The position numbers and the translations under genes are program-made. From an uncultured Flavobacteriaceae bacterium (GTDB lineage Bacteria > Bacteroidota > Bacteroidia > Flavobacteriales > Flavobacteriaceae), in NCBI GenBank assembly GCA_947489085.1, contig CANLCJ010000017.1:1-64000 (forward strand): DNA of 64,000 bases. The letters run 5' to 3'. Shown here piece after piece: positions 51,997 through 63,286 of the stretch. Each line of letters opens with the position of its first letter. Position 1 is the first letter of the stretch. The notes beneath the pieces were generated by a model, which was given only the letters and a program-made list of their open reading frames with translations, did not search any database and was not told where the DNA came from.

Positions 51997-53052
51997 TTAC
52001 AGTTGCCCTTTTAATTTTAGTAGTGGTGTCTTAAAATTTAGCTCATTAAGGATCTCTATGGCTCTAGAACTTCGTAGTCCTGATTGGCAATATACAACAA
52101 GAGGTTTGGAGGTTTTAATTTCGTGGCTACGCGTTTCTAGCTCGTCTAAAGGGATATGTTGGCCTCCTATGTGGTAGTTCTCGCGTTCCCAGAGTTCTCG
52201 AACATCTAATAGGTTATAGTCTTGAAGAGCGGCCTCTAGCGTTTCTAAGCTAATTTCATCTTTGTTAATATGGGTATGTATGCCACAGAAAAACTCATAA
52301 TCAGTTTCTAGAGTTGTAAGTTGAGCATTTTCAGTTTTATCGAATTCTAAAAGTAACTGTCGGTGAGAGAGCATATCATAGGTTAACAGTTGTCCAGACA
52401 GGGGGATACCAATACCACATATAATTTTAATCGCTTCACTGGCTTGGAAACTCCCAATCACTCCTGGTAATACGCCCAAAACGCCTATATCTGAACAATT
52501 AGGGACAGCACCTGGTTGGGGCGGTGTAGGGTACAAGCAGCGGTAGGTTGGACCGTTATTATAATTAAAGACACTAACCTGACCTTCAAATTTAAAAATA
52601 GCACCGAAAACTAAAGGTTTTTTTGTGAGTACAGCAGCATCGTTAACCAAATATCGAGTTGGAAAATTATCGCTGCCATCTATAATGATATCGTAAGCTT
52701 TAAAAAGCGTTAACGCATTGCTTTTAGAAAGCATTTCGATATGGATTTTAAAATGTACAAACGGATTTAAGCGCCTGAGTTTGGTTGCAGCAACTTCGGC
52801 TTTAGGCTGGCCTATGTCGTCATGGGTATAAAGTATTTGGCGCTGTAAATTACTTTGATCTACAACATCGTTATCTATAATACCAATGGTGCCAACGCCA
52901 GCGGCCGTAAGGTATTGTAAAATAGGACAGCCTAAACCTCCAGCTCCAATAACCAGTACTTTAGCTTTTTTTAATTTTTCTTGTCCTTCAAGGCCTATTT
53001 GGTCTAAGATAAGATGACGGTTGTATTGTTTTTTTTCTTCTGTACTTAACAT
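51997..53052 (-). CDS. thiF: ThiS adenylyltransferase ThiF with rhodanese domain
   Basis: A 351-residue E1-like enzyme that adenylates the C-terminal Gly of ThiS. Nucleotide site GAGGLGCP (~37-44), IDNDVVDQSNLQRQ, and the PNCSDIGVLGVLPG loop with the catalytic-type Cys. The C-terminal ~100 residues are a rhodanese domain with CQSGLRS carrying a persulfide Cys. The second zinc CxxC of MoeB is incomplete. Last gene of the thi operon, 5 bp after thiH; the rhodanese fusion suggests it also supplies sulfur. MoeB is a possible alternative name, but context favours ThiF. Confidence 0.9.
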   Translation of the reverse strand: MLSTEEKKQYNRHLILDQIGLEGQEKLKKAKVLVIGAGGLGCPILQYLTAAGVGTIGIIDNDVVDQSNLQRQILYTHDDIGQPKAEVAATKLRRLNPFVHFKIHIEMLSKSNALTLFKAYDIIIDGSDNFPTRYLVNDAAVLTKKPLVFGAIFKFEGQVSVFNYNNGPTYRCLYPTPPQPGAVPNCSDIGVLGVLPGVIGSFQASEAIKIICGIGIPLSGQLLTYDMLSHRQLLLEFDKTENAQLTTLETDYEFFCGIHTHINKDEISLETLEAALQDYNLLDVRELWERENYHIGGQHIPLDELETRSHEIKTSKPLVVYCQSGLRSSRAIEILNELNFKTPLLKLKGQL

Positions 53053-53057
53053 AGTGT

Positions 53058-54203
53058 TTAATGGCTAAAGTGTTCCCAGTCTTTCCACACCACTTCTAAA
53101 CCTTGGCCTTTTAGCATGTCTACGATCGTTTCGGTACTGCGTTCGTCTGAGATTTCAAACTGTTCTAGAGATTGCGGAGCTACAGCATAGCCTCCTGGAT
53201 TTGTTTTAGACTCTGCACTAATGGAAGTGATGCCTAAATTTACAATATTATTTCTAAAGACTTCACTTTCTCGGGTAGACATAGACAGTTCTACATCCTC
53301 ATCCAGCAAGCGAAAGGCACAGATGGTTTGTACCAAATCGGCATCGGTCATTTCTACTTTAGGTTCTAAACCGCCGCTATGTGGGCGTAATCTTGGAAAA
53401 GAAATCGAGTATTTTGTTTTCCAGTAGTTCTTCTGTAAGTACTTTAAATGTAAGGCGGTAAAAAAACTATCAGCCCTCCAGTCTTCCAATCCAAAAAGCG
53501 CGCCTAAACCTATTTTATGAATGCCTGCTTTACCTAAACGGTCTGGGGTTTCTAAGCGGTAATTAAAATTAGATTTTTTCCCTTTAGGGTGGTGTTTTTT
53601 ATACTCATCGCGATGGTAGGTTTCTTGATATACCAATACGGCATATAAACCGTGTGCAGCGAGGTATTCGTATTCGTCTTGGTCTAAGGGTTGTACTTCA
53701 ATAGTAATGTTAGAAAAGTGCGTACGGATTAGTTGTATGGCATTCTTTATGTATGCTACGCCTACGGTTTTATTTGCTTCGCCAGTCACCAATAAAATAT
53801 GATCGTAGCCTTTTGCTTTTAAAAAAGCGACTTCTTTAAGTATTTCACTATCTGTGAGCGTGCGTCGCGGAATTTTATTTGTCATACTAAATCCGCAGTA
53901 GGTACAAATGTTTTGGCATTCGTTGCTTAAATACATGGGCGCGTACATTTGCATGGTATTTCCAAAACGCTTTTTAGTGAGTAACCTGCTTTGTTGGGCC
54001 ATTTGCTCTAGATAGGGTTTCGCCGCAGGAGAAATAAGTGCCTTAAAATCTTCTAAAGTTCTTTTAGAGGCTGCCAAGGCCTGTTGTACGTCTGCTTCGG
54101 TTTTATTAAAGATACTGTTTAGTGTATCGTCCCAATTATAACTGTTAAACACGTCTGTAAAGTACGTTGTGTTTAGGGGTTTATTTTTGGCTTTTGGCTC
54201 CAT
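53058..54203 (-). CDS. thiH: 2-iminoacetate synthase ThiH
   Basis: A 381-residue radical-SAM enzyme that cleaves tyrosine to make dehydroglycine for the thiazole ring. Cluster ligands C96, C100 and C103 in CQNICTYC. Also YLSNEC before it, LLVTGEA, and SFPRLRPHSGG. Using ThiH instead of the oxidase ThiO implies a route that works with little oxygen. Located between thiG and thiF. Confidence 0.96.
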   Translation of the reverse strand: MEPKAKNKPLNTTYFTDVFNSYNWDDTLNSIFNKTEADVQQALAASKRTLEDFKALISPAAKPYLEQMAQQSRLLTKKRFGNTMQMYAPMYLSNECQNICTYCGFSMTNKIPRRTLTDSEILKEVAFLKAKGYDHILLVTGEANKTVGVAYIKNAIQLIRTHFSNITIEVQPLDQDEYEYLAAHGLYAVLVYQETYHRDEYKKHHPKGKKSNFNYRLETPDRLGKAGIHKIGLGALFGLEDWRADSFFTALHLKYLQKNYWKTKYSISFPRLRPHSGGLEPKVEMTDADLVQTICAFRLLDEDVELSMSTRESEVFRNNIVNLGITSISAESKTNPGGYAVAPQSLEQFEISDERSTETIVDMLKGQGLEVVWKDWEHFSH

Positions 54204-54237: not shown

Positions 54238-55008
54238 TTAGTTTAAAAAGCTTGTTAAAGGACTGCTGGCTTCTGCATGTTGTTTAACAGGTGCTAATTT
54301 GGCTTCGTAAGCCATGCGGCCAGCTGCTACTGCCATTTTAAACGCTTTAGCCATAGCTATGGGGTTTTGGGAAACTGCTATTGCGGTATTCACCAAAACA
54401 GCATCGGCACCAAGCTCCATAGCATAAGCGGCATGCGATGGTGCGCCAATACCTGCGTCTACGATTACAGGTACATTGGTCTGGTCGATTATAATTTCTA
54501 AAAAGTCCTTAGTTTTTAAGCCTTTGTTACTTCCTATTGGGGCGCCTAAAGGCATCACACATTGCGTGCCTACCTCTTCGAGGCGTTTACACAATACAGG
54601 ATCGGCATGTATATAAGGCATCACAACAAATCCTAATTTTACTAATGCTTCAGCCGCTTTTAGAGTTTCTATAGGGTCTGGTAAAAGGTATTTAGGATCT
54701 GGGTGTATTTCTAATTTTACCCAATTGGTTTCTAGAGCCTCTCTAGAGAGCTGTGCTGCAAAAACAGCTTCCTCGGCGGTGCGTACACCAGAGGTGTTTG
54801 GTAGAAGGTGAATTCTATCGTGAGCGAGGTGTGTTAATATGTCGTCTTCGGTATTATCTACTTCGACACGTTTTAAAGCGACAGTGACCAGTTCACTTTC
54901 ACTTTCAATTAGGGCAGCCTCCATTAAGGCAGAGGTGCTAAATTTACCTGTACCTGTAAATAACCGAGAGCTAAATGTTTTATCTGCTATGTTTAAAGTT
55001 GTATGCAT
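54238..55008 (-). CDS. thiG: thiazole synthase ThiG
   Basis: A 256-residue TIM-barrel enzyme forming the thiazole phosphate from deoxyxylulose phosphate, dehydroglycine and ThiS-thiocarboxylate. Motifs: [79 protein letters not shown]. The Schiff-base Lys is in WVKLEIH. Standard length; 34 bp before thiH. Confidence 0.96.
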
Positions 55009-55049: not shown

Positions 55050-55697
55050 CTATTTTTTATCAAATGTATAACGTTGTTCTAAAGTAGAAGAAGCGTTAAG
55101 TAATTGGTTAAATGTATGTATACGATTAAAATCTTGAGTAATTGCTCCCGAAACAGCAATTCCAGAGATGCCTGTTTTTAGAATGGCTGGCACGTCTTCT
55201 AAAGTAATACCGCCTATAGCAAGTATGGGTGTTTTAGTATTTAGAGCGTCTATTAGTGCCGTATAACCATTCAATCCCAGTACAGGGCTTAGGTTTGCTT
55301 TGGTGTCTGTAAATTTAAAAGGACCTAAGCCAATGTAATCTACGTCTTTTTTAATTAGGGTCTGGCAATCGTCTAAAGTGTTTGCGGTACCTCCAATGAT
55401 TTGCCAACTGTATAGTGTTTTTCTAGCATCTAGAGGGCAGGTATCGGTTTTTCCTAAATGCACACCGTCTGCTTTAACTGCTTTGGCAATTCTATAATGG
55501 TCGTTAATAATGAGGCGGGTTTGAAAATGGCTTGTAATTTCGCGTGCTTGTGTCGCTAGTTTTAAAAGTTTCTTTTCCGAACAATTTTTTAAACGTAATT
55601 GTACCAATTCGGCTCCAGAAGTACATGCTTTTTGTATGTGCTCTATATGGGCTTTAGGAGACTCGCCTTGAGATATGTAATGGAGTTTTGGTATCAT
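55050..55697 (-). CDS. thiE: thiamine phosphate synthase ThiE
   Basis: A 215-residue TIM barrel coupling the pyrimidine and thiazole halves. Motifs: VQLRLKN, INDHYRIAKAVKADGVHLG, GLGPFKFTDTK, LAIGGITLEDVP, GISGIAVSGAI. Starts with ATGA overlapping the stop of thiD, so translation is coupled. The pyrophosphate loop contains KFTDTK as in true ThiE, unlike the TenI-like copy at 60225-60815. Confidence 0.94.
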   Translation of the reverse strand: MIPKLHYISQGESPKAHIEHIQKACTSGAELVQLRLKNCSEKKLLKLATQAREITSHFQTRLIINDHYRIAKAVKADGVHLGKTDTCPLDARKTLYSWQIIGGTANTLDDCQTLIKKDVDYIGLGPFKFTDTKANLSPVLGLNGYTALIDALNTKTPILAIGGITLEDVPAILKTGISGIAVSGAITQDFNRIHTFNQLLNASSTLEQRYTFDKK

Positions 55698-56470
55698 CGT
55701 GATGTAAAAGAATTGGAAGCATAGGTATGATGGCCTAATAAGCTTGTATTTGAGTTTAAGAAGGCTTCGGTATACTGTTTTGCCATAAGCGCAGCATCTT
55801 CTAAGGGAAGCCCTAATAAAATTTGACTGGCCAGTGCAGAGGACAACACACAGCCACTGCCATGTTTTTCGTGAACCGTTAACGCTTTTGGAGGTATAGA
55901 AGTCATTACTATTTTATTATAGTGTAAGGTGTCCCATCCTTTTTTATCACGACGATGTCCGCCTTTTAAGTAAATATGAGTTAAGGCCGAAATGTGCTCT
56001 AAGGTGCTTTCTATGGTTAAATTGGGGTGTAACCACTGTATCTCGTTATAATTAGGTGTAATTATAAAACATTGTGCCCATATTTTATGGAGTAGGTCTT
56101 GATTTTCGTGTGTATGGAAATCGAAACCAGCCGAGGCTTTGATTATAGGGTCTAAAATGATTTTTAAATTAGCGTTTAGGGTTAATAAATGATCTAATAG
56201 ATTAGAGAGTACACTCCAAGATTCTACAAGACCTATTTTAACAACGGTAATATCAAAACGCTCAAAAAGAACAGAGATTTGAGCGGTAATAAGCTCAGGC
56301 TTTAACCATTCGCAACGGCTAAAGTTAGTATCGTTTTGAACGGTAACAGCGGTACATACCGATAGGCCATAGAGTCCATGCGCTTCGAATGTCTTAATGT
56401 CGGATGTTAGTCCTGCACCGCCGCTAGGGTCATGTCCTGCTATTGTTAATATGTAGTGGTTTTGTTTCAT
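55694..56470 (-). CDS. thiD: hydroxymethylpyrimidine/phosphomethylpyrimidine kinase ThiD
   Basis: A 258-residue ribokinase-fold enzyme that phosphorylates HMP twice. Motifs: AGHDPSGGAGLTSDIKTFEAHG, TAVTVQNDT, KIGLVES, LDPIIKASAG, ITPNYNEI, KGGH and HGSGCVLSSALAS (anion hole/catalytic Cys region). Overlaps thiE by 4 bp and follows the SNF2 gene by 6 bp. Confidence 0.95.
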   Translation of the reverse strand: MKQNHYILTIAGHDPSGGAGLTSDIKTFEAHGLYGLSVCTAVTVQNDTNFSRCEWLKPELITAQISVLFERFDITVVKIGLVESWSVLSNLLDHLLTLNANLKIILDPIIKASAGFDFHTHENQDLLHKIWAQCFIITPNYNEIQWLHPNLTIESTLEHISALTHIYLKGGHRRDKKGWDTLHYNKIVMTSIPPKALTVHEKHGSGCVLSSALASQILLGLPLEDAALMAKQYTEAFLNSNTSLLGHHTYASNSFTSR

Positions 56471-56476
56471 ATAGTA

Positions 56477-59400
56477 TCAGCTAAATAAATCGGTAATACT
56501 TTCTTTAGATAAATTTTTCACAAAACTTTCGTCGGTTTGTATGATGTCGTCGGATAATTGTTTTTTTGTTTCTTGGTATTTTATGATTTTTTCTTCTATG
56601 GTATCTTTACAAATCATTTTATAAGCCATTACTTTTTTCGTTTGTCCTATACGGTAACAACGGTCAATCGCTTGCGCTTCTACTGCTGGATTCCACCAAG
56701 GGTCTACAATATAAACGTAGTCTGCTGCTGTTAAGTTAAGACCTGTACCGCCTGCTTTTAAGCTTATAAGAAAAACGCGAACGTCTGAGTTGTTTTGAAA
56801 ATTAGCGACTCTAGCCTGCCTGTCTTTTGTTTTACCATCTAAGTATTCGTATTGAATATGTTTTGCGTCGAAAGCTATTTTAATAAGGTTTAGCATTTTT
56901 ACAAATTGAGAAAACACTAATATTTTATGTTGTCCTGTTTGCTCTGTAACATGCTTTACGAGTTCTTGAATTTTAACAGATTCTGAGGTGTATTTTTCTT
57001 GATCGTTTAACAATTCTGGCGCATCGCAAATTTGGCGTAGCTTTGTGAGGCCTTCTAAAACATACATTTTAGATTTACCTACACCGTCTTCGTCTATTTT
57101 TTCAAGTAAATAATTTCGGTATTTGTTTTTATAGGCATCATAGAGTTTTTTTTGTTCTTTTTCCATGGTGCAGTATAAAATCTGCTCTGTTTTTTCTGGC
57201 AACTCTGTAGCTACTTGTGCTTTGGTTCTTCGCATTAAAAACGGATGTATCATTTTTCGAAGCGCTTCGGCAGCATCGGGGTCTTTATGTTTGTCTATGG
57301 GTGTGGAAAACTCGTTTTTAAAATTTGCCATAGTGCCTAGAAGTCCAGGATTTACAAAGCTCATTTGAGCATATAAATCGAAAGTATTGTTTTCAATAGG
57401 TGTGCCTGTTAAAACCAATCTATTATTTGCTTTTATAAGTTTTACAGTTTTATACCTTTTAGAATTGGGGTTTTTTATGGCTTGAGATTCGTCTAAAATA
57501 CAATAGTGGAATTGGTAATCTTTTAAAAACGAAATATCGCGCATCACTACTCCGTAAGTGGAGAATACGAGATCTACAGTGCTAAAATTAGCAGTGTCTG
57601 TATCTCTGTTAGTCCCATTATGTACTAAATATTTTAATGCAGGTGCAAATTTTGTAACTTCTTCTTGCCAATTAAATATTAGTGAAGTAGGTAAGATGAT
57701 TAAAGTGGCTTGTTTAGGTTTTTTTGTATTCTTTATGTGTTTTAAAAAACTAATGACTTGAAGGGTTTTACCAAGCCCCATATCGTCTGCCAAACAACCA
57801 CCGAATTTATAGGTTTCTAAAAAGTTAAGCCAATTAAGGCCTTCTTTTTGGTAGTTGCGCAGGTTTGCTTTTAAGCCAGCAGGTTTTTGTATATTATTGA
57901 TATTTTTAAAGCTGTCTAAGCCTTCCTTTATTTGCCTGTGGTTTTTTGCAATTTCCGACGTAATATCTATATCTTCATATAAAGTATCAATAATTGATAA
58001 TTGATATTTGGATACTTTTATAGTGTCTTTTTTTACGTCTCCAGATCTAAAAACGTTACTGTATTTTTCCACCCATTGTTTGGGCAAAATACCAATGCTA
58101 CCGTCTTTAAGCTTTACAAAATTATCCTTGTTTATTACAGATTTTCGTATGTCTTTTAAACTTACGAGTTGGTCTCCAAATTTAATTTCTATACCTACAT
58201 CAAACCAGTCTATTTCAGAATTTACGTTTGTCTGTATTGTAGGTTTGTTTGTGTTGTACTTTAATTTAGATAATTTTTCTGAACCGTAAATTTCAATATT
58301 ATGAGTTTTAAAAATTTCAAAGGCCTCTAAAAACCATCCGTTTTTAACAAAATCTTCTATGTTTAAGTAAAAAAAACCTTGGTTTTGATTTTTAAAATAA
58401 GGATGCGTACTTGCTACAGTATTGTAAAATTCTCGTTCTAGATCTAAATGGCGATTTACTTTTACATGTTTACCATTATCTTCGTAAGTTAAATAATCGT
58501 TTTTAAGTAATTCGTAGTGTTCGTTATTATATTCTAATATGGGGTTTAAAATGATAATATCTTCCTCTTCAGAACAATAAATTTGCTTTTTAAAATCTGT
58601 AGCCTTTGTAGGTCTTAATTTGTATTTTCTTTTAGATACGACAACTTCAAACTGCTTTTCTAGTGGTTTAATAAGTGCTTCATTGTAGGCCTCAAAATCG
58701 GTTTTATTGATGCGAATTTCAGGGGTTTCATTAAACTTCAAAAAAGCTTGAGCTTCATATAATGATTTATAGAAATAATAGGTGTCTTTTTTTTGAATAC
58801 AGAATAGATTGTTTACATAAGCACCTTTTTTAAGTGCTATTTTTTTACCCTCGAGTTTTATATAGGCTTTTAACAGATAGAAATGTGTTTCTTCTGTAAG
58901 TTTAAAAGACAAAGAAGGATGCATTTTAGAAATAACTACAGGTTCTATATGTTTTGAGGATATATTTTGCTTAACTTCTGTAAGCCTACCTACAATTACA
59001 GTGTCGTCTATAGCGTCTACAATTGTTTTTATGTTCTGGAATTGGTACCGGTGGACTGTACTTGTAAGCTTAGAGTCGAAATTTTCTAGTTTAAAAATAG
59101 ATTCTAATATAAGTTGTTCTTTTTCGGTGAACAATTGTTTTTTAGCAATATAGGTATCTGCTTCTACTATTGTAATCTTAGAGGTTAACCTACGCTTTAA
59201 TTTATCGGTGTTACCCATAACAGGGTAAAATCCTAAACCATGATGTGGAGGTGCAAAAAGTAAAGCAAAGGCTTTAGGTTTTGTGTTATCTTCTACAGGT
59301 AGTTGCGAAGCAATTATGGTTTTAGGGTCTGTAAAATTTTTAGAAAAAAGATCTAAATCTTCGTTGGCATAGCTTTTAAGGATACCAGGAACTTTTGGAG

Positions 59401-60217
59401 TCGCTTCCAGTTTGCCGTTAACGTATTGGAAGTCGAAGTAAGTATTATAGATGTCATCTTTTAGGCTAAACCCATAAGCATTTAAAAGCACTTCTTTTTT
59501 AGCTAATATTTCTTCTTTAGATGCTAAAAACAGAGGCGCTTTTTTTGAAATATAATAAAGGGCTCTTGTTTGATGTTTGCATAAATTCTTATTGGAATTT
59601 TTACAATGGCATAAAAGTGATAACTCGGTTTCTGTTTTTTTAATTTCTAGAGAGACATAGTTTGAAGACCAATACTCATTTTCAGCGACTATAAAGTTTA
59701 AATGATTATCGCTAGCGGCCTCTAACTCTATGTCTAAGAGAATGTGTATATAGCTATTATAATTTTGCTTAGAGGCATGTGCTTTAATAAGTGCATCTAA
59801 ATTTGTGTTGTACACGTTCTCTATGGGAATAGTATAAGGTGCTGTAGATGAATATTTTTTGGCGCTTTTTGGGGTAACAGCTATTGGTTTTTCTATATCT
59901 GCGACTTCTAGATTATTTTTGCTTTGATCTTGAGTTGAAAAAAAGGCTTCTGCTTCTACTGCTAAGGCGACTTCGTGTTTGCAAACATTTCCATGATCGA
60001 AGGGACAACTACAATGGCTTGAAATGTGTCCAAAAATAAGTCCTGTAAAACTTACAGTATAAGGAATGCCAGACGAGCCTTCTACAGTAGCACTTATAGT
60101 GTTTCGATCTGTAGAAAAGTCAAGATCTAATACATTACATTGGCTTGCACGACCACGAATAACAGCTGTGGTGTTTGCATGTATGTACGTTTTTAATCTT
60201 TTATTATGAAGCTCCAT
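56477..60217 (-). CDS. SNF2-family helicase with two SWIM zinc fingers
   Basis: A 1246-residue SNF2/SWI2 ATPase. Two CxCx7CxH SWIM zinc fingers near the N-terminus (C69, C71, C79, H81 and C203, C205, C213, H215), a long middle region (~220-780) without a recognised fold, then the helicase core: Walker A DMGLGKT (812-818), DESQ (909-912), LTGTPIEN, and the C-terminal lobe with VFSQF, LISLKAGGTGLNL and AIDRCYRIGQ. It translocates on DNA or remodels protein-DNA complexes; exact role unknown. Odd: it sits inside the thiamine operon, 7 bp after the TenI-like gene and 6 bp before thiD, so it should be under the same TPP riboswitch. Confidence 0.93.
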   Translation of the reverse strand: MELHNKRLKTYIHANTTAVIRGRASQCNVLDLDFSTDRNTISATVEGSSGIPYTVSFTGLIFGHISSHCSCPFDHGNVCKHEVALAVEAEAFFSTQDQSKNNLEVADIEKPIAVTPKSAKKYSSTAPYTIPIENVYNTNLDALIKAHASKQNYNSYIHILLDIELEAASDNHLNFIVAENEYWSSNYVSLEIKKTETELSLLCHCKNSNKNLCKHQTRALYYISKKAPLFLASKEEILAKKEVLLNAYGFSLKDDIYNTYFDFQYVNGKLEATPKVPGILKSYANEDLDLFSKNFTDPKTIIASQLPVEDNTKPKAFALLFAPPHHGLGFYPVMGNTDKLKRRLTSKITIVEADTYIAKKQLFTEKEQLILESIFKLENFDSKLTSTVHRYQFQNIKTIVDAIDDTVIVGRLTEVKQNISSKHIEPVVISKMHPSLSFKLTEETHFYLLKAYIKLEGKKIALKKGAYVNNLFCIQKKDTYYFYKSLYEAQAFLKFNETPEIRINKTDFEAYNEALIKPLEKQFEVVVSKRKYKLRPTKATDFKKQIYCSEEEDIIILNPILEYNNEHYELLKNDYLTYEDNGKHVKVNRHLDLEREFYNTVASTHPYFKNQNQGFFYLNIEDFVKNGWFLEAFEIFKTHNIEIYGSEKLSKLKYNTNKPTIQTNVNSEIDWFDVGIEIKFGDQLVSLKDIRKSVINKDNFVKLKDGSIGILPKQWVEKYSNVFRSGDVKKDTIKVSKYQLSIIDTLYEDIDITSEIAKNHRQIKEGLDSFKNINNIQKPAGLKANLRNYQKEGLNWLNFLETYKFGGCLADDMGLGKTLQVISFLKHIKNTKKPKQATLIILPTSLIFNWQEEVTKFAPALKYLVHNGTNRDTDTANFSTVDLVFSTYGVVMRDISFLKDYQFHYCILDESQAIKNPNSKRYKTVKLIKANNRLVLTGTPIENNTFDLYAQMSFVNPGLLGTMANFKNEFSTPIDKHKDPDAAEALRKMIHPFLMRRTKAQVATELPEKTEQILYCTMEKEQKKLYDAYKNKYRNYLLEKIDEDGVGKSKMYVLEGLTKLRQICDAPELLNDQEKYTSESVKIQELVKHVTEQTGQHKILVFSQFVKMLNLIKIAFDAKHIQYEYLDGKTKDRQARVANFQNNSDVRVFLISLKAGGTGLNLTAADYVYIVDPWWNPAVEAQAIDRCYRIGQTKKVMAYKMICKDTIEEKIIKYQETKKQLSDDIIQTDESFVKNLSKESITDLFS

Positions 60218-60224
60218 AGTGTCT

Positions 60225-60815
60225 TTATTTCGAGAAACCTTGTTGCATTTTTTTAAATGCGATAATAGGGTGTTCTGTATTCCAAATACCGCCTAATACA
60301 CCAACGCCTTGAAATCCTAAGCGTTTAAAAGCATCAAGGTTATCGGGGGTAACACCACCCATACCTATAATGGTTTTATCGATATGGTTCACATCGAAAC
60401 CGCGCCCTTCGTAGCCTTGTTTAGAGATAGACGCAAATACGGGGCTTAATAAATGGTAGTCAAATTCAAAATCGCATGCTGCGAGCACTTCGGGTTCATG
60501 AAACGAAGAGCTAATGGTTTTGCCAAACATATTAAGGTCTTTAAAATACTGCCCAGGATTATCGATATGGTCCTTGCGTTTTTGTTCTTGAAAATGAATG
60601 CCTTTTAGTGCAAATTCATTAATCAATTCATGATGGTAATGTACCACAATACGATCGTGATATTTGACATCTATTTTATTGAGGTAGGCACAGTGTTGCT
60701 CGTAATTTTTATGGGGCTTTCTAAAATGATAGTACTGTAAGCCTGCTTCGAACAGACGTGTTAACAGGTCTATTTCGTTAGGAATATCGTTTTCTGGTGC
60801 AATTAAAACAATCAT
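60225..60815 (-). CDS. second ThiE/TenI-like protein
   Basis: A 196-residue TIM-barrel protein of the ThiE/TenI family. It keeps the barrel order (LYYHFRKP-like start, FALKGIHFQ, GKTISSSFH, LLSPVFASISKQGYEGRG, GMGGVTPDN, GVGVLGGIW) but has GIHF instead of DGVHLG and lacks the QLR and pyrophosphate-loop signature of the true ThiE at 55050-55697. It therefore resembles TenI, the thiazole tautomerase, more than a synthase. A role in thiazole maturation is inferred. It follows thiC after a 211-bp gap with structured elements. Confidence 0.8.
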   Translation of the reverse strand: MIVLIAPENDIPNEIDLLTRLFEAGLQYYHFRKPHKNYEQHCAYLNKIDVKYHDRIVVHYHHELINEFALKGIHFQEQKRKDHIDNPGQYFKDLNMFGKTISSSFHEPEVLAACDFEFDYHLLSPVFASISKQGYEGRGFDVNHIDKTIIGMGGVTPDNLDAFKRLGFQGVGVLGGIWNTEHPIIAFKKMQQGFSK

Positions 60816-60837
60816 TTTTTAGAGTGTTTGTTATAAG

Positions 60838-60893
60838 ACCAGTTCTTAAGTATTTGCTATAAATCGTGTTTTAGCAAGTAGGAGAGAACTGGT
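60838..60893 (-). promoter_or_regulatory. nested hairpin between thiC and TenI-like gene
   Basis: ACCAGTTCT (60838-60846) pairs with AGAACTGGT (60885-60893); inside, a symmetric 7/7 internal loop is followed by TTGCTA/TAGCAA. No T run follows on the transcript strand, so it is not a standard terminator. It may be an mRNA processing or stability structure within the operon. Confidence 0.4.
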
Positions 60894-60918
60894 GTTTTAT
60901 AATTGAATGTTGAGGTGC

Positions 60919-61015
60919 GTTGCGTTAGGGATTGCAGTGAAAATCCTTTTGCTTTTTTGCAAAAGATTGTAACGGAAAGCCCGCCCACGCTTTTTTTGAA
61001 GCGTGGGGACGCCCT
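60919..61015 (+). repeat. GC-rich dispersed repeat, copy 2
   Basis: Starts TTGCGTTAGGGATTG and ends GCCCGCCCACGC...GCGTGGGGACGCCC, with a hairpin CCCACGC/GCGTGGG and an inner TTTTGC/GCAAAA stem. Shares start and end words with the copy at 5743-5828. Inserted between thiC and the next gene of the operon. Confidence 0.6.
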
Positions 61016-61026
61016 GAATTTTAAAT

Positions 61027-62892
<1,866 letters not shown>

Positions 62893-62921: not shown

Positions 62922-63125
62922 TTAGCCTCCTTGTGTTGATGTAATTATTAAAATGGCATCGTTTTGATGCAGTGTTTGGGTGTGCCACTCTGTTTTTTTT
63001 ATCACTTTATTATTGATAGCAATGGCAATACCGTTGGTTTGTATTTCTAATTTAGAAACCAAATCATTAAGGGTAGTTTCTGGAGCGATATGGTGTGCTT
63101 TTTGGTTTACTTCTACAGAAATCAT
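62922..63125 (-). CDS. thiS: sulfur carrier protein ThiS
   Basis: A 67-residue ubiquitin-like sulfur carrier ending in the required Gly-Gly (STQGG). The start at 63125 (MISVEVNQKAHH) is chosen because the longer frame to 63218 would begin inside the TPP riboswitch. Core words: TTLNDLVSKL, GIAIAINNKVI, LHQNDAILIITSTQGG. First gene of the thi operon. Confidence 0.93.
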   Translation of the reverse strand: MISVEVNQKAHHIAPETTLNDLVSKLEIQTNGIAIAINNKVIKKTEWHTQTLHQNDAILIITSTQGG

Positions 63126-63162: not shown

Positions 63163-63186
63163 GATGTATAGTTGTGGGCTATGTAA

Positions 63187-63256
63187 CTATAACTTTTCCC
63201 TACGTTGGTCTTAACCAAATCAGGTTCTAAGGATATGTCTCAAGCTAAAGTTATAG
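63187..63256 (-). ncRNA. TPP riboswitch (THI element)
   Basis: Read on the minus strand: P1 stem CTATAACTTT/AAAGTTATAG closes a compact ~70-nt fold containing the THI-box words CTTGAGA, CCTTAGAACCTGAT, TTGGTTAAGACCAACG and GTAGGGA, in the canonical order with a short P3. It binds thiamine diphosphate and would switch off the thi operon when the vitamin is plentiful. It sits 61 nt before the thiS start. Confidence 0.93.
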
Positions 63257-63278
63257 CTACTCCTAAAGTTTACGTTTA

Positions 63279-63286
63279 CAAAGATA
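63279..63286 (-). promoter_or_regulatory. -7 box TATCTTTG of thi operon
   Basis: TAnnTTTG match on the minus strand, 23 nt upstream of the riboswitch, placing the transcription start just before it. Confidence 0.6.

Follow-up and report, generated by a model that had tools for sequence, protein, structure and literature searches.

A SNF2-family ATPase gene with two SWIM motifs between tenI and thiD in thiamine operons of Flavobacteriaceae

In an uncultured Flavobacteriaceae bacterium (assembly GCA_947489085.1), the first 64,000 nucleotides of contig CANLCJ010000017.1, here called the window, contain a thiamine biosynthesis (thi) operon in which a large gene for a SNF2-family ATPase, a helicase-type motor protein, lies between the TenI-like gene and thiD. 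The same slot is occupied by orthologs in related genomes, one sister species carries a decayed copy, and many related operons have no copy. The explanation that we favour, at a probability of about 0.62 and on comparisons of sequence, is that the gene encodes a working but dispensable accessory SNF2 translocase, resident in the thi operon and probably expressed from the thi transcript.

Position of the SNF2 gene and its recurrence

All genes of the operon lie on the (-) strand, in the order thiS-thiC-tenI-SNF2-thiD-thiE-thiG-thiH-thiF (Table 1), and are led by a thiamine pyrophosphate (TPP) riboswitch; with its aptamer upstream and its thi genes all running in one direction, it qualifies as a TPP-riboswitch thi operon. 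The SNF2 gene is separated by 7 bp from the TenI-like gene (which ends at 60225) and by 6 bp from thiD (which starts at 56470). The coordinates, the Pfam matches and the RF00059 match thereby agree with an earlier reading of the window from its letters alone (the original prediction), which had placed a helicase at these distances behind the riboswitch.

A species-level genome collection was scanned with two peptide patterns that represent the family's N-terminal part, and the best 80 loci were kept (below, G labels denote genomes and L labels loci). Four of these have thi genes in the stretch examined; they are the four top-ranked loci, always show the order tenI-SNF2-thiD, and comprise three Aquimarina records and a 4.3-kb contig from a metagenome-assembled genome (MAG) of Flavobacteriaceae (L043). 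In the other 76 relatives, the stretch examined, which is short for some of them, contains no thi gene. Among full-length orthologs from the genus Aquimarina, seven of eight lie between tenI and thiD, with contig ends limiting the view in G464 (only 22 matched tenI residues on the contig) and G467 (thiC cut). Nine intact thi-slot copies are thus at hand, namely those of the window, seven Aquimarina-genus genomes and L043, the eight orthologs being 43-58% identical to the window's protein; across the nine, the gap to tenI is -14 to 114 bp and that to thiD -1 to 69 bp. Because the same slot is occupied in eight other genomes, the arrangement is beyond chance.

Of the 76 non-thi relatives, 4 are closely enclosed by two genes of their own strand (gaps of at most 100 bp), and 11 had no open reading frame (ORF) on one side; the ORF caller used for these gaps was crude and mis-started L041, L057 and L117. 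In the genus Aquimarina, 27 tenI loci without an adjoining thi-slot SNF2 gene were fetched, and 24 of them have thiD in the stretch: 23 have 0-62 bp between the two genes, and one (G436) has a different, 168-residue ORF there (L167:977-1483 (-)), with a start that by eye resembles a signal peptide. Since this different ORF occupies it, the tenI-thiD junction tolerates cargo. Additionally, ten Aquimarina-genus genomes (G430, G431, G467, G469, G471, G475, G483, G485, G487 and G489) have two tenI-like matches at separate places, one of which adjoins the SNF2 gene in G467, G469 and G487.

The neighbourhoods of the non-thi relatives were surveyed after 21 of the 76 loci had been dropped by hand as being of the same genus or near-duplicates by title (L060, L066 and L115 among them, though without an obvious twin), along with ORFs that were shorter than 90 residues or cut off, which left 55 loci and 90 immediate neighbours. 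No recurrent defence partner was found among these neighbours with PADLOC at E ≤ 1e-10 (15 families, the top one being PDC-S01 with 2/90), and no Pfam family recurred in more than 3/90 among the matches listed, which cover the best 25 of 133 families. The eighth Aquimarina-genus ortholog, that of G455, is followed by an ATPase that by eye resembles the DUF4143 type; DUF4143 was also seen in 2 of the 90 neighbours.

The protein and its relatives

The window protein is a SNF2-family ATPase, matching Pfam SNF2-rel_dom at E 3e-75 (253.5 bits against a cut-off of 24.9) and Helicase_C at E 6.3e-22 (78.4 bits against 23.5), with motor residues 811-818 and 909-912 invariant in the alignments. Its first 790 residues contain two CxCx7CxH motifs, i.e., two copies of the CxCxnCxH pattern of the SWIM zinc finger, all eight ligands of which are at least 90% conserved across 50 aligned relatives. 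The Pfam SWIM model has no match on the window protein itself, but of five thi-slot proteins aligned, four match it at E ≤ 1, the best of them at 1.2e-7; at the same threshold, the motor domains were found in five of five thi-slot proteins scanned and SNF2_assoc in two of five. The motor domains and the two conserved motifs bear out the SNF2/SWIM identity first proposed for this gene. "Chromatin-type remodeller", as it had also been called, turned out to be only a name: the protein belongs to a bacterial SNF2/SWIM family, 76 of whose best 80 members are without a thi gene in the stretch examined. With the bacterial SNF2/SWIM/SNF2_assoc helicases (PF00176, PF00271, PF04434 and PF08455) the thi-slot proteins have the motor, SWIM and SNF2_assoc in common, and the Bacteroidota relatives among these are of similar length; they differ from them by their fixed place in the thi operon and by having two SWIM motifs. 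At E ≤ 1e-5, the protein has no second match in the window genome. The gene product would probably be a DNA translocase acting in trans, outside thiamine chemistry.

Several named families were compared with the protein. ZorD of Zorya (PADLOC PDLC00633; structure 8qy7) matches by profile over residues 441-1232 (E 5.6e-120), from which the window protein differs by its two SWIM fingers and by an NCBIfam ZorD score of 241.9 bits where the cut-off is 1500. The partners of ZorD are presumably the motor genes ZorA and ZorB; no Zorya partner was found beside the SNF2 gene, whose immediate neighbours are thi genes, in a search that covered these neighbours. DpdE (PADLOC PDLC02842) is the best PADLOC profile, at E 1.6e-152 over the motor half only (696-1244). 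The NCBIfam DpdE model, which has a cut-off of 500 bits, scores the protein at 40.3 bits, and in a search of the same extent the genes adjoining SNF2 were thi genes, with no dpd gene beside it. Scores were likewise under the cut-offs for the RapA equivalog, the RNA-polymerase-associated SNF2 protein (38.9 bits against 576), for pilus_reg_Snf2 (397.4 against 1100) and for the SCO1167 helicase (430.8 against 1200). Membership in the Zorya, DpdE, RapA or pilus Snf2 families was rejected, as scores were far under the cut-offs or partners did not adjoin.

The best solved relative of the motor is the SNF2 core of PDB 1z63 (E 5.4e-132, profile positions 785-1251), which we take to be of the Sulfolobus SSO1653 type; this chain spans the motor only, whereas the window protein has a long N-terminal part besides. 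By sequence, the N-terminal 793 residues have no solved relative at E ≤ 1. The predicted N-terminal structure (mean pLDDT 81.3, pTM 0.41) has no PDB match at E ≤ 0.001, the top Foldseek match of the pre-motor region being a weak one to apo ZorD (E 3.7e-3, TM 0.14). Matches by VIA are also weak, with a polo-box domain first (Z 5.5) and ZorD second (Z 5.2, root-mean-square deviation 5.4 over 191 residues at 538-761). For this reason no fold is claimed for the N-terminal region.

Selection, decay and operon history

The SNF2 coding sequence is under purifying selection. In five pairs, the NG86 ratio of nonsynonymous to synonymous substitution rates (dN/dS) is 0.096, 0.109, 0.120, 0.189 and 0.162, with synonymous sites near saturation in most of them; the same pairs give 0.104-0.252 for thiD. 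Composition permits no conclusion about a recent foreign origin, since among the listed ORFs of at least 250 residues the GC content of 0.326 is the second lowest and the GC content at third codon positions, 0.26, is ordinary.

The window's genus was sampled with 12 genomes, including the window's own, of which five have thiD at E ≤ 1e-30. In one of them, the sister species G006, the eight thi proteins match those of the window at 97.7-100% identity over nearly their full length, and the SNF2 gene is in place minus 3473 bp: residues 1-25 and 1179-1246 are left and meet, out of frame, at a 6-bp repeat. The dN/dS of this remnant (NG86) is about 0.5 in the 68-residue tail, and the 25-residue head shows no synonymous change, very few sites being available in either; the remnants look as though they are under relaxed selection. 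Since both ends of the gene remain in place beside otherwise intact thi genes, the simplest reading is that the SNF2 gene predates the split of the two species and then died in G006, leaving the other thi genes unbroken. An assembly artefact was rejected, because the place is the same on separately assembled contigs and both SNF2 ends are in place in G006. Three congeners have thiD directly after the TenI-like gene, at a distance of 23 bp in G002, 0 bp in G007 and 98 bp in G004 according to script-called start codons.

The nine thi-slot SNF2 proteins and the G455 copy form a single clade in a tree of 43 rows (SH-aLRT 95), and also in a tree of 21 rows picked by hand from these (UFBoot/SH-aLRT 95/96, or 100/99 without the deepest member, L043). 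A tree of the flanking genes tenI and thiD was built from 35 operons, eight of which bear SNF2 or what remains of it; L043 and G464 were too short to be included, and 6 of the 35 rows sit on long branches. On this tree the presence of SNF2 calls for at least four changes, three of which are forced by well-supported branches, and a single clade of the eight SNF2-bearing operons is rejected (p-AU 1.7e-12). Because the SNF2 proteins form one clade yet the operons that bear them do not, the plain reading is that the association is old and patchy and that the gene would have been repeatedly lost or exchanged between operons. In L043, the tail of tenI (76/73%) and the head of thiD (77/73%) are nearest or near to congeners G002/G007, thiD being also 74% identical to that of G004. 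Moreover, thiC is of two sorts. The first, seen in G004 and in some Aquimarina-genus operons, shares 95-99% identity with the window's thiC; the second, seen in others and in congeners G002 and G007, shares 85-89%. In these operons tenI and thiD are just 36-70% identical to the window's, which suggests that the operons may be mosaics.

With respect to expression, 9 of 10 thi operons, including SNF2-less operons and the near-copy in G006, have a box TAnnTTTG, which we take to be the Bacteroidota -7 consensus, shortly upstream of the aptamer, its start being 9-13 bp away. No such box, the one type scanned, was found within 300 bp before SNF2 in any of the seven loci with the full stretch, nor in the 199 bp before SNF2 in L043. 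A two-box promoter pattern was dropped as a negative test, as it was seen in just 2 of 10 positive-control riboswitch promoters, and the single -7 box (9/10) was used instead. Additionally, the SNF2 stop codon overlaps the thiD ATG in four operons (L032, L151, L152 and L124). A box before the aptamer and none in the 300 bp before SNF2 suggest that the helicase may be transcribed from the riboswitch promoter.

The remaining features of the locus are collected in Table 1. The name thiH for the gene with Radical_SAM and BATS domains (53058..54203) is our assumption, and the alternative thiS start in the ORF list, TTG at 63218, falls within the aptamer. Flavo-1 is a dispersed element, with 11 matches in the window genome at E ≤ 0.001, six of them above the cut-off; in the thiC-tenI gap of other SNF2-bearing operons it is present in G006, L032 and L040 and was not found in L042, L150, L151 and L152, and among SNF2-less operons it was found in 0 of 5, plus 1 of 20 (L180) in stretches reaching 1.5 kb from tenI. 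Directly upstream of the TenI-like gene, an imperfect inverted repeat (60832-60899; 31-nt arms, 74% complementary, 6-nt spacer) could possibly form a hairpin in the transcript.

Table 1. Features of the thi operon region, in window coordinates
Feature	Position	Strand	Basis or remark
Bacteroidota-type -7 promoter box TAnnTTTG	63279..63286	(-)	directly upstream of the riboswitch
TPP riboswitch aptamer	63180..63274	(-)	RF00059, 72.2 bits, cut-off 54.3
thiS	62922..63125	(-)	PF02597; start ATG at 63125
thiC	61027..62886	(-)	PF01964
Flavo-1 RNA element, thiC-tenI gap	60919..60990	(+)	antisense to operon
TenI-like gene (TMP-TENI superfamily)	60225..60815	(-)	PF02581, 1.8e-9
Dual-SWIM SNF2 ATPase, 1246 aa	56477..60217	(-)	ORF and domain profiles
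SWIM motif 1 (C69-x-C71 ... C79-x-H81)	59975..60013	(-)	motif in alignment
SWIM-like motif 2 (C203-x-C205 ... C213-x-H215)	59573..59611	(-)	motif in alignment
SNF2-related ATPase domain, aa 789-1068	57014..57853	(-)	Pfam
Helicase_C domain, aa 1082-1191	56645..56974	(-)	Pfam
thiD	55694..56470	(-)	PF08543
thiE	55050..55697	(-)	TIGR00693 above cut-off
thiG	54238..55008	(-)	domain profile
thiH (presumed)	53058..54203	(-)	Radical_SAM and BATS
thiF with rhodanese domain	51997..53052	(-)	domain profile

Explanations of the residence and their meaning

In the favoured explanation, a functional bacterial SNF2 translocase with two SWIM zinc fingers, a middle region and an intact motor would have become an accessory thi-operon resident in some Flavobacteriaceae. 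Its entry into the tenI-thiD junction would have happened at least once and date back to an ancestor of today's thi-SNF2 clade; later the gene would have persisted or spread with the slot through inheritance and operon recombination, with repeated loss by deletion. Lacking a visible promoter of its own, the gene would rely on the TPP-riboswitch promoter, by way of read-through and translational coupling, and the helicase would consequently be repressed by TPP and made mainly when TPP is low. The protein would be unneeded for thiamine synthesis and would work on DNA (or on transcription complexes) in trans, borrowing its expression from the operon. Comparable in layout is the thiSEGCHF-tenI operon of Bacteroides thetaiotaomicron, likewise a riboswitch-led thi biosynthetic operon with tenI, for which lower expression of the whole operon with thiamine is described (PMC5613172); as named in that paper it includes no helicase, whereas the window operon has one.

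Several observations weigh against this explanation or parts of it. The promoter scan covers a single type of box, and in other operons this box does turn up nearby: L124 has one at -10 from SNF2 (178 bp scanned), L152 one at -87 from tenI and L032 one inside SNF2, at -238 from thiD. A wider two-box variant has a match inside the window's SNF2 gene, which chance would allow, as the window has 4 matches where 5.2 are expected. The SNF2 protein of L043 is the deepest branch of the thi-slot clade despite its congener-like flanks, so that SNF2 and its flanks differ in history and one entry alone cannot be taken as proven. The G455 ortholog lies outside any thi operon (L153:7808-11584 (+)), in what by eye resembles a polysaccharide gene cluster. 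Against a needed link with thiamine, patchiness counts as well: among the five thiD-bearing genomes of the window's genus, three have no helicase, G006 has its remnant and the fifth is the window's own, and a full-length ortholog (50-58% identity) is present in 8 of 66 Aquimarina-genus genomes, compared with a TenI-like gene in 62 of 66. The original prediction had named, as the pattern that would speak against it, a gene found elsewhere in relatives together with an internal promoter isolating it from the thi transcript; the former is seen in one genome, G455, and the one-box scan did not find the latter.

The same patchiness, with most thi operons of these genera being without SNF2, and the copy kept outside the operon in G455 make a purposeful coupling unlikely, in which low TPP would induce a motor useful in thiamine starvation (e.g., in transcription recycling or repair) and selection would hold it in the operon, even though the recurrent slot with its one SNF2 clade, the purifying selection, the own promoter box not found, the overlaps with thiD and the rarity of tight same-strand embedding among non-thi relatives (4/76) all agree with such a coupling. 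About as unlikely is the proposal that the TPP riboswitch directly governs the SNF2-SWIM motor and so links vitamin B1 status to genome or transcription maintenance, with the clade selected for that link. A pure passenger, which found a permissive site to land at the tenI-thiD junction, was selected apart from thiamine (possibly as a defence-like gene) and moved by recombination between thi operons, is a tentative but serious possibility. It would account for a distribution that is patchy and discordant with the flanking genes, for the different ORF in the same junction of G436, for the relocation in G455 and for the resemblance of the motor half to the ZorD and DpdE profiles, and it sits less well with one SNF2 clade of long residence and with the lack of a recurrent defence partner among the 90 neighbours of non-thi relatives (top PADLOC family 2/90). 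A one-off clean insertion specific to the window species would fit the three congeners in which thiD directly follows tenI, but it is refuted by the same place in eight other genomes (seven of the genus Aquimarina and one MAG) and can be given almost no credence. Thus, where the original prediction had offered deliberate coupling or a clean insertion, coupling or at least long residence has gained from the nine genomes, the single clade, the selection, the missing box and the overlaps, whereas a needed link has lost ground to the patchy presence, the G006 remnant and G455.

The window and its relatives present a protein of a familiar kind at a place that is new for it and has been kept repeatedly. 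No paper on a SNF2 gene in a thi operon was found in the literature searched, outside which lie most subscription papers and preprints. The related operons with an intact, broken or absent copy of one large motor gene amount to a natural repeated experiment, and with this series it can be tested whether operon membership reflects shared function or shared transcription only. If the coupling is selected, a nucleic-acid motor would be tied to a vitamin-sensing riboswitch; if it is not, the tenI-thiD junction would be a clear case of an operon that offers an incoming gene both a place to land and regulated expression.

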